Positions 12,100 through 21,500 of a DNA stretch of 64,000 nt are shown piece by piece (the first letter of the stretch is position 1; each line of letters begins with the position of its first letter). The DNA lies in the NCBI RefSeq assembly GCF_000161935.1, contig NZ_GG698807.1, positions 21,966 to 85,965 of the forward strand, given 5' to 3'. The stretch comes from Limosilactobacillus coleohominis 101-4-CHN (GTDB lineage Bacteria; Bacillota; Bacilli; Lactobacillales; Lactobacillaceae). A program made the position numbers and the translations under genes. The notes beneath the pieces are model-generated. The model saw only the letters and a program-made list of their open reading frames with translations, searched no databases and was not told the origin of the DNA.

Positions 12100-12627
12100 A
12101 TGAAATCGACAAAAAATCTACTAGGCCGTAGTGCCTTTGACCTCAGCGAGACAAAGTATTTTGAGTCCGTTTCAGTAAAAGACATTGCCTCACACGCCCA
12201 AGTCGAGCGGCAGACTTTTTATTACTATTTTTCAGATAAATACCAATGTCTCAGTTTTTATCTTCAGCAATGGGGGACTCTGTTGGCGGAACGGGATGGA
12301 TCTACTAATCTCCAGCAACACTTACTGAATTTATTGGATGTAATTCGTAAACATAAAGAAGCAATTATTCATATTACATACGGTGACCAAGGATATTCAC
12401 TACTAAGTGCCTTTTTGGATACTGCATTAAATCAATTTATTTTACAAAGCGAAGGTAAAAAGGCCGCTGATCAACTTGATAAGGGTGCGCAGTTCTTCGC
12501 GTACGGTATTCGGGGAATCATTATTGAATGGATTAAAAAAGGGATGGACGACGATCCGTCAACTTTATTAGCGAAAACGTTACCATCATCGACAGAAAGC
12601 GTCGATCGTTTGTTTTCAGAAGTATAA
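12100..12627 (+). CDS. TetR-family transcriptional regulator
   Basis: 175 residues with an N-terminal TetR-type helix-turn-helix: VSVKDIASHAQVERQTFYYY followed by FSDKYQCL at about residues 26-53, the usual spacing. The C-terminal ligand domain is unspecific and resembles the DhaS-like subgroup in layout. It sits immediately upstream of gadC on the same strand, so control of the gad genes is an inference from position only. A dyad TATACA-N12-TGTATA begins right after its stop (12631-12654) and is a candidate operator. Ribosome site is TAGGAG, 8 bases before the ATG. Confidence 0.85.
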   Translation: MKSTKNLLGRSAFDLSETKYFESVSVKDIASHAQVERQTFYYYFSDKYQCLSFYLQQWGTLLAERDGSTNLQQHLLNLLDVIRKHKEAIIHITYGDQGYSLLSAFLDTALNQFILQSEGKKAADQLDKGAQFFAYGIRGIIIEWIKKGMDDDPSTLLAKTLPSSTESVDRLFSEV

Positions 12628-12784: not shown

Positions 12785-14251
12785 TTGGCTGAAAATAAAC
12801 AAGAAGCCAAAGACCTGAAGGCAGTTAACCAGATTACTGGGTTCCAACTGTTCTCTATGACCACTTCAATGGTTATGACGGTCTATGGATTTGCTTCATT
12901 TGCTAAGCAAGGCGCTACGGCGTTCTTCTTCCTGTTCTTAGCTGGTATTTTATGGTTCTTACCTGTTACCCGTGCAGCTGGTGAAATGGCATCAGTTGAT
13001 GGCTGGTCCAAGGGTGGTGTCTTCACCTGGGTAGGTAAGATGTACAGTGAAAACTCTGGGTTCTCTGCATTGTTCTATCAATGGGTCCACATTACCGTTG
13101 GTATGAACACAATGATGATGTTCATCATCGCATGTTTCTCAGCTAGTTTGAGTTTACCTGCAATGTATGACAACCTTTGGGTTCGTTACATTTTAATTTT
13201 GATTATTATTTGGGGATTAATTGCCCTTCAACAACGTGGGACAAAGTTTACTGGTAAGATTGCTCAATGGGGATTCACACTCGGTGTTATTATTCCTGTA
13301 TTCTTCTTACTATTCCTCTTTGTTGCTTACTTGTTAACTGGTCACCACATGTTGATTACAATCAACTGGCACACAATCTTCCCACAAACTTGGTCTGGTA
13401 GTGTTCTGGTTGGATTTGTTCCATTTATCCTAGCATTCTGTGGTGCTGAAGGTTCTGCTCCTCACGTTAAGAACTTAAAGAACCCACATGCTTATGCTAA
13501 GGTTATGTTGGCATTATGTATTGCTGCGATCTGCTCCGATATCATTGGTTCAATGTCAATTGCCGCTACAATTCCTAACGATAAGATTCAATTGAGTAAC
13601 GGAATTGTGTTTGCTTATGGTTCATTAGCTTCGATGTTCCACATGTCTGGTGAATTTATTCAACGCTTAACTGGTATTCTGTTAGCACTTGGTGTGTTGG
13701 CCGAAATTAGTAGTTGGGTTGTTGGTCCAAACGCCGGGATGCACGAAGCTGCTAAGAAGGGTTACCTTCCAGCACGGTTCGCTAAGTCAAACAAGAACGG
13801 TATTGGTACTAATGTCATGGTTCTCCAAGGAATCATCGTATGTATCGTTGGTGCATGGTTAACCTTCGGTGCTGGTGGTTCAAAGAACGACATCAGTTTC
13901 CAAACTGCAATGAGTTTAACGGTTGCAATTTACATGTTAATGTACTTAATGATGTTTGCTGCTTACTTCCGTTTGATCAACAAGCATGATGATTTACACC
14001 GGACATGGGTTGCTTCACGTTCTAAGTTCTTGAAGAACTTATACGCAATTGTTGGTTTTGTTTTGACCGCATTTGCTTTGATTGTTACGTTCTTCCCACC
14101 AAAGGGATACTCAGTAGCACAACAACACACTTACCTAATGCTGTTGATTGTCGGATTCGTAATTGTCTTCTTCGTTCCATTTATCATGCTTCGTTACCAC
14201 AACAAGTGGACGAAGGAAGTTAAGGACGCAGGGCTTTACGACGAAGATTAA
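12785..14251 (+). CDS. gadC: GadC, glutamate:GABA antiporter
   Basis: APC-superfamily permease of 488 residues that exchanges external glutamate for internal GABA, the transport half of glutamate-dependent acid resistance. About 12 hydrophobic segments are visible; the first contains ITGFQLFSMTTSMVMTVYG and the C-terminal tail is soluble and charged. A TTG start at 12785 is chosen because GGAG (12771-12774) lies 10 bases before it. It is followed by gadB on the same strand with no terminator between, so the two are probably co-transcribed. Codons are strongly biased to AAC, AAG, TTC and CAC, as in highly expressed genes. A decayed homologue lies at 18390-19840. Confidence 0.93.
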   Translation: MAENKQEAKDLKAVNQITGFQLFSMTTSMVMTVYGFASFAKQGATAFFFLFLAGILWFLPVTRAAGEMASVDGWSKGGVFTWVGKMYSENSGFSALFYQWVHITVGMNTMMMFIIACFSASLSLPAMYDNLWVRYILILIIIWGLIALQQRGTKFTGKIAQWGFTLGVIIPVFFLLFLFVAYLLTGHHMLITINWHTIFPQTWSGSVLVGFVPFILAFCGAEGSAPHVKNLKNPHAYAKVMLALCIAAICSDIIGSMSIAATIPNDKIQLSNGIVFAYGSLASMFHMSGEFIQRLTGILLALGVLAEISSWVVGPNAGMHEAAKKGYLPARFAKSNKNGIGTNVMVLQGIIVCIVGAWLTFGAGGSKNDISFQTAMSLTVAIYMLMYLMMFAAYFRLINKHDDLHRTWVASRSKFLKNLYAIVGFVLTAFALIVTFFPPKGYSVAQQHTYLMLLIVGFVIVFFVPFIMLRYHNKWTKEVKDAGLYDED

Positions 14252-14378
14252 TTTATTACAAAATAACATATCGACTATCGTCAAGGTCCCTGAAAGGGGG
14301 AATTGGAGAACGAAGTTAGTAGTTGTCTGATTTAGTAAAGTAGTAGTCATATATTTTGTAGCGATAGGTTTTTAACAC

Positions 14379-14423
14379 AAAGGAGGGGAAGGAATTAGTT
14401 GGCTGCTAATTCCGAAAACTAAT
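14379..14423 (+). promoter_or_regulatory. gadB leader: strong Shine-Dalgarno separated from the start by a hairpin
   Basis: AAAGGAGGGG (14379-14388) is the only ribosome site before gadB yet ends 35 bases from the ATG. Between them GGAATTAG (14391-14398) and CTAATTCC (14406-14413) form a perfect 8-bp stem with a 7-base loop. Removing the 23-base hairpin leaves about 12-14 bases, close to a workable spacing. The same arrangement precedes gadB2 (20084-20129). No ATG, GTG or TTG start lies in frame between the site and the ATG. Confidence 0.75.
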
Positions 14424-15800
14424 ATGGCTGATATTAACGATGCTTTAGAGCAAAACTGGTTAGGTAGCGTTGAATCTGGCGAACATTTACCAGAAGAAGA
14501 AATGCCTGAAAAGGCAATGAACCCAAACGTTGCTGAACAATTAATTCAACACTTCCGTTTGAACGAAGCAAAGGCTAACCAAAACTTGGCAACCTTCTGT
14601 TCAACTCAAATGGAACCACAAGCTGACAAGTTAATGGCAAGTGCCATGAACACTAACGCCATTGACAAGTCAGAATACCCAAAGACGGCTGCCATGGAAG
14701 ACCGTTGTGCTGCCATGATTGGTCACATGTGGGGTATTCCAGAAGATGAAAAGTTCCGGAAGGACTTCATCGGTACTTCAACTGTTGGTTCATCAGAAGC
14801 ATGTATGTTAGGTGGACTTTCCATGTTATTCTCATGGAAGCACCGTGCTAAGGCTAATGGCATCGACATCGATGACTTACACAACCACAAGCCAAACATG
14901 ATTATTGGTTCTGGTTACCAAGTTGTTTGGGAAAAGTTCTGTACTTACTGGAATGTTGAAATGCGTCAAGTTAAGTTGGAACACGGTACCAACGAATCAA
15001 GCTTGAACATTGAAAAGGCAATGTCATTAGTTGACGAAAACACGATTGGGATTGTTGCTGTCTTTGGTATTACCTTTACTGGTGAAATTGATGACGTTCA
15101 AGCCCTTGATGCTGAAGTAACTAAGTACAACGAAGCTCACAAGGACATGCCTATTAAGATTCACGTTGACGCTGCTTACAACGGATTCTTCGCTCCTTGG
15201 GTTGATGGCTTCAAGCCATGGGACTTCCGTCTGAAGAACGTTGCTTCAATCAACGTTTCTGGTCACAAGTACGGAATGGTTTACCCTGGTTTAGGTTGGA
15301 CTATTTGGCGTAAGAACGATTACGAACACCTTCCAAAGGAAATGCGGTTCTCTGTACCATACCTTGGTGGTTCAGTTGACTCCATCGCTATTAACTTCTC
15401 CCACTCTGGTGCTCACATTGTAGGTCAATACTACAACTTAATCCGGTTTGGTAAGGAAGGCTTCCGTGCAGTTATGGAAAACGTACGGAAGGTATCAACT
15501 CACATTAGTGAAGTTTTGAAGGCCACTGGTTACTTCGAAATGATCACCGATGGTTCACTTCTTCCAATCAACACTTGGAAGCTTCGTGATGATGTTGATG
15601 TTAAGTGGAACCTTTATGACATGGAAGATGCCCTTCGTTCATACGGTTGGCAAGTTCCTGCATACCCACTTCCAAAGGATCGTGACGACGAAACTGTTGA
15701 ACGGATCGTTGTTCGCCCAGGAATGAGCATGACGATCGCTGATGACTTTGCTGAAGACCTCAACCAAGCCATTGACGACTTAAACAAGAAGTTTAACTAA
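14424..15800 (+). CDS. gadB: Glutamate decarboxylase
   Basis: PLP-dependent enzyme of 458 residues that converts glutamate to GABA and CO2, consuming a proton. The cofactor lysine is Lys282 in SINVSGHKYG; HVDAAYNGF carries the family's conserved Asp. Full length for the bacterial GadA/GadB family, with C-terminal MTIADDFAEDL. It follows gadC and has extreme codon bias (nearly all AAG, GAA, TTC, CAC), suggesting very high expression. The start at 14424 lacks a close ribosome site; see the leader entry. A paralogue at 20130-21500 is interrupted by a stop. Confidence 0.96.
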   Translation: MADINDALEQNWLGSVESGEHLPEEEMPEKAMNPNVAEQLIQHFRLNEAKANQNLATFCSTQMEPQADKLMASAMNTNAIDKSEYPKTAAMEDRCAAMIGHMWGIPEDEKFRKDFIGTSTVGSSEACMLGGLSMLFSWKHRAKANGIDIDDLHNHKPNMIIGSGYQVVWEKFCTYWNVEMRQVKLEHGTNESSLNIEKAMSLVDENTIGIVAVFGITFTGEIDDVQALDAEVTKYNEAHKDMPIKIHVDAAYNGFFAPWVDGFKPWDFRLKNVASINVSGHKYGMVYPGLGWTIWRKNDYEHLPKEMRFSVPYLGGSVDSIAINFSHSGAHIVGQYYNLIRFGKEGFRAVMENVRKVSTHISEVLKATGYFEMITDGSLLPINTWKLRDDVDVKWNLYDMEDALRSYGWQVPAYPLPKDRDDETVERIVVRPGMSMTIADDFAEDLNQAIDDLNKKFN

Positions 15801-18389: not shown

Positions 18390-19840
18390 TTATTCAGAAT
18401 GAGTCTTTGATTGTTGATCCAATAATCCAGTGTGATGTTTCCGTGTTGCATAATAAATTGCAAACGGAATGATAACGACAATAATAAAGCAAGAAATTAA
18501 AATTGTCATGTAAGTACCTGCGGAAGAGGCAGGAAGTGAAGTAGTTGGGAAGAAAGAAATAATAAACGCAAAGAGGGTTACTAAGAATCCGCAAACAGCG
18601 ATGATCGTCTTACCAACTGTACCACCAGGAACATTGTAAGTTCGTGGTAAATCACGTTTCTTAAATACTAAAACTAAATAACCAATAAAGAATAAGAAGT
18701 AACCAACTAGGTAGATAACGACAGTTAAGCCCATTGCTGCGAAGAATGAAACATTACCGCCTCCGCCGCCAAGGGTAAGAACAGCGTCCCAGATAGAAAC
18801 AATAAGTCCTTGAACCATAATTAAACGGACAGGAATATTATGCTTATTAGTCTTTTGGAAGTATTTTGGAATAATGCCAACTTTAGCAGTATCATAAATT
18901 GCTCGAGATGGACCAGTAACCCATGAACTAATTTCAGCAATTACACCACAAGCAAGCATTAAACCTACAATTCGAGTAAGCCAGCCTAGCTTGCCACCGC
19001 TTAAATGAATAAATAATTAAATGCTTGTACAACACCAGCACTTAAAGAGAGTTCTTTTTGTGGAATTACAGAAGCAACTGTTAAACCACCAAGTGTATCA
19101 AGGCAAATTGCCAAGATGACCAGAATAAACATAACTAATGGATAATTTCGATTTGGGTTCTTTAATTCATTAATGTAGGAAGCAGATGCTTCACCGCCCA
19201 TGTATGCCAGAATAAATGATACAAAGACAACTAATGTCGTCACTTTAGTGAAGTCCGGAATGAATGCATGTGGAGTAAAACTAATTAGTAGTTTACCGCC
19301 AGAGCAAAGATACCAAATTGCGAGAATGAATAAAATTGCTGATGGAATTAAAATCCCAATCATGAAGCCAAATTTGGCAATTTTTTGGGTATATTTAGTA
19401 CCGCCTAATTGAGAAAATGTTACTAACCAGAAGACAATTAGAACGCCCAAAAATTTAACCCATGGGTTACTTGCTAGTGCAGGCCAACTAACAACGAACG
19501 ATAAGGCCCCAAGAATGAAATAAATCATTGTACAGAAGTTAACGGTGATTTGGAACCATTGGAAGAAAATAGCAGCGAATCCAAACCGTTGACCGAGAGT
19601 ATGACTAACCCAGCTGAATTCACCTCCTCCATTATCATTCCATCCTTTTACAGTAGCCATTTCAGCAGCATAAAGGGCAACCGGAATGAACCAAAAAATA
19701 CCTCCAAGAATGAGGAAGAATACCAGGTGCAACTTTGAAGTAGCAAAAGTTGGGTATTCATAGACGGTTAGAACCATCGCTGCAGTGATGGAAAAGAAGC
19801 CCCACATTGTCAGGGTTCTTTTATTTTGCAAAGCACTCAT
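18390..19840 (-). pseudogene. gadC2, glutamate:GABA antiporter paralogue broken by a frameshift
   Basis: Two frames together make a full GadC-type permease. The first (19840-19001) holds the N-terminal segments up to AFNYLFI. The sequence then continues in another frame as HLSGGKLGWLTRIVGLMLAC and on to 18390. The shift lies around 19003-19013 in an AT-rich stretch. About 480 residues in total, with a good ribosome site (AAAGGAG) before the start. It is transcribed divergently from gadB2, which is itself interrupted, so the second gad locus looks inactive. It lacks the strong codon bias of the intact gadC. Confidence 0.9.
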
Positions 19841-20083
19841 AACATTTCTCCTTTCAGTTATTTAATCATTGACTTTCAATGATTCATTCTCATCATAAGG
19901 CGGTAGAAGAAGTTTTACAAAAATAATGTAAATTTTAAATTTAGTATCATTAATTAACAAAAATAATTAATGGATATTGTTGAAGAACGAGATACTTATT
20001 ATTTGCCTTTTTAAATTTATGCTTGTTACACTCAGGATGAATCATGATTTAAATTCAAGGTATACCTGAATGCGATATGTTTG
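19841..20083. promoter_or_regulatory. Divergent control region between gadC2 and gadB2
   Basis: Holds two dyads. CATTAATTA and TAATTAATG (19948-19972) are perfect 9-base arms around 7 bases. AGGTATACCT (20058-20067) is a perfect 10-base palindrome set in a longer imperfect one (ATTCA...GAAT). These are plausible regulator sites for both genes. Promoter boxes were not clear enough to assign. Confidence 0.4.
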
Positions 20084-20129
20084 AAAGGAGGTTGAGGAAT
20101 TAGCCAGCTACCAATTCCGATACAGATCA
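20084..20129 (+). promoter_or_regulatory. gadB2 leader: Shine-Dalgarno separated from the start by a hairpin
   Basis: AAAGGAGG (20084-20091) lies 38 bases before the ATG. GGAATT (20096-20101) and AATTCC (20113-20118) form a 6-bp stem in a 23-base block that matches the gadB leader at 20 of the first 25 positions. With the hairpin excluded the spacing is 15 bases, nearly the same as in gadB. Confidence 0.7.
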
Positions 20130-21500
20130 ATGACAGAAAAAGATCAAGCGTTAGAACAAAACTGGTTGGGGAGTACTGAATCAGGAGAAGACTTACCGGA
20201 CCAAGATATTCCTGAACAAGCGATGAATCCGACGGTGGCTAAACAATTGATTCAACACTTTCGTTTAAATGAAGCTAAGGCCGATCAAAACTTAACAACG
20301 TTCTGTACCACCCAAATGGAGCCGGAAGCCGATGAATTGATGAAGGAAGCAATGAATACTAACGCGATTGATAAGACAGAATATCCTAAGACCGCGGCAA
20401 TGTGTGATCGTTGTGTGGCAATGATTGGTCATATGTGGGGAATCCCGGAAGATGAAAAGTTCCCTAAGGATTATATTGGGACTTCAACTGTGGGCTCATC
20501 AGAAGGATGTATGCTTGGCGGCTTAGGAATGCTGTTTACGTGGAAACACCGTGCTAAGGCTGCTGGAATAAATATTAACGATCTAGACCATCATCGGCCA
20601 AACTTGATTATTGGGTCCGGATACCAAGTGGTTTGGCAAAAGTTCTGCACTTATTGGAACGTAGAAATGCGACAAGTACCCTTGAAGAAAGGGTCTGATG
20701 AACTGAACCTGAATATTGATGAAGCGATGAAACTGGTTGACGAAAATACGATTGGAATTGTGGCAATTTTTGGGATTACCTATACCGGAGCAATTGATGA
20801 CGTTCAAGCACTCGACCAGCGCGTTTCAGAATATAATCAGTCTCACCCTGACTTACCATTACGAATCCACGTCGACTCAGCATATAATGGATTCTTTGCT
20901 CCATGGGTCTCAGGCTTTAAGCCATGGGATTTTCGCCTGAAGAACGTTGCTTCAATTAACGTTTCTGGTCACAAGTACGGCATGGTTTATCCTGGCATTG
21001 GCTGGATTGTCTGGCGCAAAAACAATTATGATTACTTACCAAAGGAATTACGCTTCTCCGTTCAATACTTAGGCTAGACAGTTGATTCGATTGCAATTAA
21101 TTTCTCCTGTTCTGGAGCTAATATTGTGGGCCAATACTATAACTTAATTCGCTTTGGTAAGGCTGGATACCGAGCATGTATGGAAAATGTCCGGAAAGTT
21201 TCAGAAAAGTTAAGTAAAGCAATTAGCGACACAGGCTACTTTAATGTCATTACAGATGGTTCCGAATTGCCAATTATTACTTGGGAGTTTAAGAAAGATA
21301 CCAACGTAAAATGGACATTATATGATGTTCAAGATGCATTGAAGATGTTTGGCTGGCAAGTTCCTGCCTACCCGCTACCGAAGAATCGTGATGATGAAAT
21401 TATTCAACGGATCGTTGTCCGGCCGGCGATGGACATGACAATTGCCAATGACTTTATTGATGACTTAGGGCATGCACTTGACTATTTAAATCATAAATAG
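20130..21500 (+). pseudogene. gadB2, glutamate decarboxylase paralogue with an in-frame amber codon
   Basis: One continuous frame of 457 codons, closely similar to GadB at 14424-15800 throughout, with TAG at 21075-21077 (codon 316). The cofactor lysine is conserved at residue 282 in SGHKYG, but the stop removes the last 141 residues, which include part of the large domain and the C-terminus. Where GadB reads LGGSVDS, this reads LG-stop-TVDS. Two histidines shortly after (SHSGAH in GadB) are Cys and Asn here. Codon use is more ordinary than in gadB. Translation could make a 315-residue product, unlikely to be active. Confidence 0.92.

Follow-up and report, generated by a model that had tools for sequence, protein, structure and literature searches.

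A hairpin between a distant Shine-Dalgarno sequence and the start codon of gadB, kept across seven genera of lactobacilli, probably forms a split ribosome-binding site

How can a ribosome start at a codon that lies 37 nt beyond its Shine-Dalgarno (SD) sequence? The glutamate decarboxylase gene gadB of Limosilactobacillus coleohominis 101-4-CHN raises this question. In the window, the whole 64,000-nt stretch of contig NZ_GG698807.1 that was analysed, gadB follows genes for a TetR-type regulator and gadC, and further along lie gadC2 remnants, gadB2 and gltX. An earlier note on this DNA had described a strong SD, far from the ATG, ahead of both gadB and gadB2, with a block able to fold into a hairpin in between, and its coordinates and letters for the two leaders are correct. 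The features are as follows.

12100..12627, plus strand: TetR-type regulator gene, 5' of gadC; its matches to TetR-type models are under their cut-offs
12785..14251, plus strand: gadC-like glutamate/GABA antiporter gene, 5' of gadB; best match TIGR00910, 3.7e-130
14379..14386, plus strand: gadB SD, AAAGGAGG; the spacer 14387-14423 measures 37 nt, to the ATG at 14424
14391..14413, plus strand: gadB hairpin, 23 nt, beginning 4 nt past the SD; folded out, it leaves 14 nt
14414..14423, plus strand: linker from the hairpin to the gadB start codon, 10 nt, without an SD core of at least 4 bases
14424..15800, plus strand: gadB, glutamate decarboxylase of 458 aa; TIGR01788, 3.5e-158
20083..20092, plus strand: gadB2 SD, GAAAGGAGGT, about 37-38 nt ahead of the ATG at 20130
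20096..20118, plus strand: degenerate copy of the hairpin ahead of gadB2, with an A.C mismatch in the stem; match to covariance model R2 (see below) of 18.9 bits, E 0.15
20130..21500, plus strand: gadB2, with 75% identity to gadB; one TAG, 21075-21077, interrupts the frame

The gadC-like gene scores 434.9 bits against TIGR00910, under the curated cut-off of 673.5, and two plasmids carry an annotated TetR/AcrR gene at the position equivalent to that of the window's TetR-type gene. The window GAD protein is 98-100% identical to those of L. caecicola and L. coleohominis loci. Between gadC and the gadB SD lie 127 nt (14252-14378) that by eye resemble the corresponding stretches of L005 and L006 and are missing from the short Levilactobacillus gadC-gadB gap. 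Further along, gadC2 is divergent from gadB2 and split into two minus-strand frames (18390-18959 and 19001-19840); judged from these broken frames, gadC2 and the TAG-interrupted gadB2 read as a decaying second gad locus.

The spacing itself sets the two gadB leaders apart. We surveyed 386.8 kb of contig C11 together with the window, roughly one quarter of the 1.73-Mb genome, and took the 338 ORFs that encode 150 aa or more. A GGAGG occurs no further than 50 nt from the first ATG in 65 of them, and in 59 of these it stands 4-12 nt away. Against the median of 8 nt in these 65 genes, the 37 nt of gadB bear out the claim that its SD is too distant for ordinary initiation. The six outliers lie at 0, 14, 21, 35, 37 and 38 nt, the last two being gadB and gadB2; the ORF at 35 nt, which we take from its N-terminus to be rpoC, presumably uses a TTG start closer to its SD. 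Under a strict definition of the arrangement (an SD of at least 7 bases at 22-48 nt, a hairpin, and early starts that all lack a canonical SD), ORFs with 100 aa or more yielded no case among 340 in C11 (2203 N), two among 54 in the window, namely gadB and gadB2, and none among the 675 of L. brevis (800 kb); on a separate L. brevis gad stretch, gadB also has the strict arrangement. A census of 381 ORFs likewise singled out gadB and gadB2. Matches of any strength numbered 10 in C11, 4 in the window and 26 in L. brevis, and we inspected those that had no canonical start or an SD of at least 7 bases. With the exception of one L. brevis ORF, the weaker matches were by eye internal or misassigned starts, as were the two in C11 and the two in L. 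brevis that combine a six-base SD with no canonical start. The exception, near 15471 of L134, encodes 378 aa without a Pfam match and has GAGGTGA 36 nt 5' of its first ATG; its stem is weak (-3.7), a later start has only a four-base SD, and it is possibly a second, weak case.

In the window, the gadB hairpin reads GGAATTAG-TTGGCTG-CTAATTCC, a perfect 8-bp stem to which the minimum free energy (MFE) structure adds one U.G, giving GGAATTAGT-TGGCT-GCTAATTCC with nine pairs, eight of them Watson-Crick. The MFE of the 48-nt leader is -11.9 kcal/mol against a shuffled mean of -6.2, a value equalled by 3 of 200 shuffles, and for the spacer alone 0.4% of 500 shuffles fold equally well. The 141-nt region around the leader does no better than its shuffles (56 of 200 as good), and the signal is therefore that of the local hairpin only. 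The SD and the AUG are both outside the hairpin; in context the AUG is free with a probability of 0.27, owing to other pairings. At gathering score, Rfam recognised only one tRNA in the window and gave the leader no family match, and a search of a phage collection with the gadB leader returned no match.

The paralogue adds less than the earlier note had supposed. The gadB and gadB2 blocks do agree at 20 of 25 positions, with all five differences transitions, as that note had counted. Its claim of a hairpin in both copies stands for gadB, where the fold goes beyond chance, and falters for gadB2, where the changes destroy pairs (A-U becomes A.C, U.G becomes C.A), the spacer MFE is -3.9 and is matched by 23% of shuffles, and the mean pair probability of the stem in context is 0.05 or 0.01. 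The gadB2 fold is weak, its stem hardly forms, and the paralogue by itself is insufficient support for a hairpin. The observation nevertheless holds, because the decisive evidence comes from relatives and not from gadB2.

We refer to GADs with at least 60% identity to window gadB as clade A and to those with about 40-52% as clade B. After removal of same-genome duplicates across two collections, 25 clade-A Lactobacillaceae leaders were available, and 20 of these, from seven genera, consist of an SD, 31-38 nt with one hairpin, and the ATG: six from Limosilactobacillus, six from Levilactobacillus, two each from Furfurilactobacillus, g13 (Lentilactobacillus) and g17, and one each from g5 and g33, counts that are not independent events because leaders of the same genus are often near-identical. 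The MFE structure of the spacer is a single hairpin in all 20, and in 18 the fold is better than 95% or more of 500 shuffles, the exceptions being gadB2 (0.228) and L059 (0.068). Fisher's combined p over 13 leaders is 4e-15, the leaders being treated as independent though they are not and two inputs being set to 0.002 where no shuffle equalled the real fold. Arms and loops were measured in 17 of the 20 (L004, L006 and L029 were left out as copies or near-copies): the hairpin is 18-29 nt long, ends 6-12 nt before the ATG and leaves a residual spacing of 7-16 nt.

The hairpin is absent in the other five, which come from L. raoultii, L. farraginis, L. parakefiri and plasmids in L. sakei and L. 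pentosus. Of the two observations that the earlier note had named as weighing against its own proposal, an alternative start at normal spacing was not seen in our survey of the leaders, and lack of the block was, in these five. The L. raoultii group has the SD AGAAAGG 12 nt from the ATG, identified by eye where the script missed it. The plasmids (L100 and L101), typed as conjugative, carry tetR-gadC-gadB-gltX in Latilactobacillus sakei and Lactiplantibacillus pentosus, and their leaders are of the L. parakefiri type. Clade-A leaders of Enterococcus and, by eye, Aeriscardovia have no hairpin arrangement; in Enterococcus the SD stands at 8-9 nt in seven of eight leaders by script and in the eighth (L016) by eye. 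For the clade-B and Aeriscardovia leaders the assessment was visual, and the start is not shown in several of these stretches.

On a midpoint-rooted GAD tree of 33 of the 35 prepared proteins (L026 and L038, shorter than 350 aa, were omitted, and window gadB2 was not included), the hairpin label changes four times. The first branch in clade A, g17, has the hairpin, as do most other Lactobacillaceae; Enterococcus, four Aeriscardovia and the L. raoultii group lack it. A single gain followed by losses would be one reading of this pattern. The four Aeriscardovia (Bifidobacteriaceae) proteins, from metagenome bins (L008, L009, L011 and L012), group with Limosilactobacillus in the tree, and L010, L027 and L030, outside the tree, are similar to them, which points to transfer across phyla or to mis-binning. 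Two observations on single genomes may be added: G017 has two clade-A gadB copies (L064 and L099) with unrelated hairpins at the same place, and gadB of L. tangyuanensis (L026, near 2953) has a TAG at codon 10 with an ATG directly after it, behind an SD-hairpin-ATG spacer that L. senmaizukei (L029) has letter for letter.

If the leaders share a fold and not a sequence, their arms should pair with each other and not with those of other genera. Between genera, 5' arms agree on average at 1.58 of their six outer bases; own arms pair at 5.94 of 6 on average, and arms swapped between genera at 2.31, with some swaps reaching 6 (17 leaders). Loops span 3-11 nt and by eye have no motif common to the whole set; near relatives have loops in common, and the loop CCAATAA occurs in L055 as well as in L061, which belongs to another genus. 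L055, L061, L063 and L059 form a set of four leaders that can be aligned with one gap column and are paired in 36 of 40 cells, and the search for covariation in the stem that the earlier note had recommended came out positive in them: compensatory changes fall in 7 of 10 pairs, a count reached by 1 of 500 shuffles, with 2.5 for shuffles and 1-2 for a slid register, and RNAalifold returns the identical ten pairs. Three Levilactobacillus leaders have compensatory changes in 3 of 10 pairs (18 of 500 shuffles reach 3), and 11 model-fitted leaders have double changes in 9 of 10 (none of 500 shuffles; the fitting leans to structure).

Covariance models were built on the four leaders (R1) and on the 11 (R2). 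R1 placed 9 of 15 held-out leaders at the top rank in 256 kb, with 18.9-29 bits, and missed gadB2, L007, L025, L028, L064 and L099; its best score in 787 kb of background was 18.8 bits, which puts window gadB, at 18.9, at the edge of background. R2 ranked six leaders first in 188 kb and missed L007 and L099; its top ranks include both Furfurilactobacillus leaders (E 0.0014 and 0.01) and one g17 leader (E 0.085), all outside its training set. A scan of the family with R2 matched at least 7 of 396 genomes, always at the gadB leader, and has little bearing on other genes, since 16 candidates were scored in each genome and G000 itself went unmatched. Together, the compensatory changes, the arm swaps, the covariance-model searches and the in-frame stops that interrupt 11 of 18 spacers strongly support the view that the fold, and neither a peptide nor the letters, is under selection, in agreement with the earlier argument against a conserved peptide, and the block therefore probably loops out, as had been proposed.

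We consider it probable that the gadB leader is a constitutive hairpin-bridged, or split, ribosome-binding site of the T4 gene 25/38 type. The strong SD would base-pair with 16S rRNA, and the hairpin of 18-29 nt would loop out and reduce the distance from SD to AUG from 31-38 nt to 7-16 nt (14 nt in gadB); this shortened spacing would let the AUG reach the P site. The hairpin would thus be a structural spacer and enhancer, probably permanently folded, and we infer that the 30S subunit would initiate with the hairpin folded and that translation would depend on it. Several observations sit less easily with looping out. The residual 14 nt in gadB (7-16 nt in the set) exceed the usual 8 nt; the total spacer of 31-38 nt is rather constant, beyond what the model requires; the gadB2 and L059 spacers fail a 5% shuffle test; and five of the 25 clade-A Lactobacillaceae leaders, along with those of Enterococcus and Aeriscardovia, manage without a hairpin. 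Some stems are also low in context: the mean pair probability over -120..+60 is at least 0.88 in 13 of 18 leaders, and is 0.01 in L021, L024 and gadB2, 0.51 in L018 and 0.72 in L064, while over -60..+40 it is at least 0.9 in 11 of 18. For the Levilactobacillus stems, the predicted competing partners may lie within the gadC tail, a translated stretch.

The alternative that fares best, though we think it unlikely, is a regulated switch, in which the stability of the hairpin or a bound factor sets GadB output through an acid-stabilised A+.C pair, temperature or a protein. It would suit an acid-resistance gene, and gadB2, L007, L018, L021, L024 and L059 all have A.C or C.A mismatches within the stem or at its edge, some stems being marginal at 37 C (-2.1 kcal/mol in L059, -2.5 in gadB2). 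However, the window gadB stem has no A.C, L055 carries C.C and C.U in its place, and an excess of A.C is expected in any case, as a single transition in a Watson-Crick pair can produce no other mismatch. At 45 C, the predicted stem energy is still no higher than -4 kcal/mol in 14 of 18 leaders, which is why we read the hairpin as a fixed spacer and not a switch. The leader also does not resemble an RNA thermometer or a protein-bound leader, the SD and AUG being unsequestered and the loops, by eye, without a motif. The earlier idea that gadB translation answers to pH, temperature or a trans-acting factor is accordingly not supported. In L. brevis, the pH control of gadCB was reported as measured on transcripts in the available part of the source (PMC6240960), which speaks against the switch and is compatible with a translational layer. 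A narrower version, an acid-tuned on-switch in which A+.C in some stems would firm the hairpin as cytosolic pH drops, is decidedly improbable; if true, the bridged site would work best in acid, when GadB is needed.

A standby role, also raised by the earlier note, or a stabilising one would make the folded hairpin dispensable: the distal SD would dock ribosomes or shield the mRNA from 5' exonucleases. Distal SDs with docking or mRNA-shielding roles are known, and the rather constant SD-AUG length fits such a role, as does an AGGA at 13 nt (L063) and 11 nt (L064) from the ATG. We nonetheless find it improbable, somewhat more so than a switch in general, since an SD core of at least 4 bases at 3-20 nt from the ATG is lacking in 18 of 20 leaders, the AGGA of L063 and L064 sits inside the 3' arm of the hairpin, and neither role would explain why compensatory changes preserve a hairpin placed precisely between the SD and the AUG.

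There is very little room for a true start nearer the SD, or for a short upstream ORF with re-initiation or coupling. Candidate starts do occur: in the window, a TTG at 14399, 12 nt past the SD, whose 7-codon frame ends 1 nt before the ATG; in all five Levilactobacillus spacers analysed, an out-of-frame ATG whose frame ends 1-8 nt beyond the first base of the gadB ATG; in L019, an ATG 5 nt past the SD and in L061 a TTG 8 nt past it, both closed by an in-frame stop. Yet 10 of the 11 spacers with an in-frame stop offer no in-frame ATG, GTG or TTG beyond it (the exception is L005), no candidate start codon for an upstream ORF exists in gadB2, L055, L064 or L099, and the TTG of L005 is in the gadB frame. 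Across the 18 spacers no upstream ORF is conserved and the candidate starts are not kept. Coupling to gadC was considered separately and disfavoured: gadB2 is divergent from the gadC2 remnants in the window, and in about 1.4 kb upstream of both G017 copies the open frames are by eye not gadC-like. Finally, a DNA operator or a transcription terminator or attenuator, which an inverted repeat in an intergenic region might suggest, is barely credible given that arm letters vary widely between genera with pairing kept and that no terminator-like site was called at the gadB hairpin. For the 52-bp gadC-gadB gap of L. brevis, the available part of PMC6240960 reports no promoter or terminator; it describes inverted repeats ahead of gadC and gadR, and its main text, to that extent, does not contain the word 'hairpin'.

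The split ribosome-binding site that we favour would have several consequences. One looped-out site has apparently been kept over seven lactobacillar genera in a cellular gene that serves acid resistance and the production of GABA, and its leaders would form a natural series for gauging which hairpins a 30S subunit accommodates between the SD and the P site. In gadB expression work, output should change if the leader hairpin is removed or put in the wrong place, and predictors of starts or ribosome-binding sites limited to about 20 nt would overlook hairpin-bridged sites. Looped-out sites are already known; titles and abstract openings in the open-licence literature yielded no report of the gadB leader hairpin, weak evidence that the gadB case is new.

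The closest parallels come from phage T4, where looped-out ribosome sites in genes 25 and 38 are supported by mutants, according to the available part of a review (PMC3014915). Like gadB, gene 25 (the 26-25 junction) is intercistronic and has a hairpin between a distant SD and the AUG, which brings them from 27 nt to 11 nt; the fold is described there as kept in close T-even relatives and absent from distant ones (PMC3014915). In contrast, the gadB fold covers seven genera with letters unconserved between most of them; its spacer, at 31-38 nt, is longer than that of the gene of this E. coli phage, and no homology is claimed. In gene 38, as in gadB, a hairpin cuts the SD-AUG distance, there from 22 to 5 nt in the same account (PMC3014915). 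Gene 38 differs from gadB in its shorter spacing and is an unrelated gene. The E. coli thrS hairpin lies upstream of the SD and not, as in gadB, between the SD and the AUG. At this split site, as described in the available part of the source, the ribosome accommodates a long hairpin in the binding region while it is still folded (PMC3936740).
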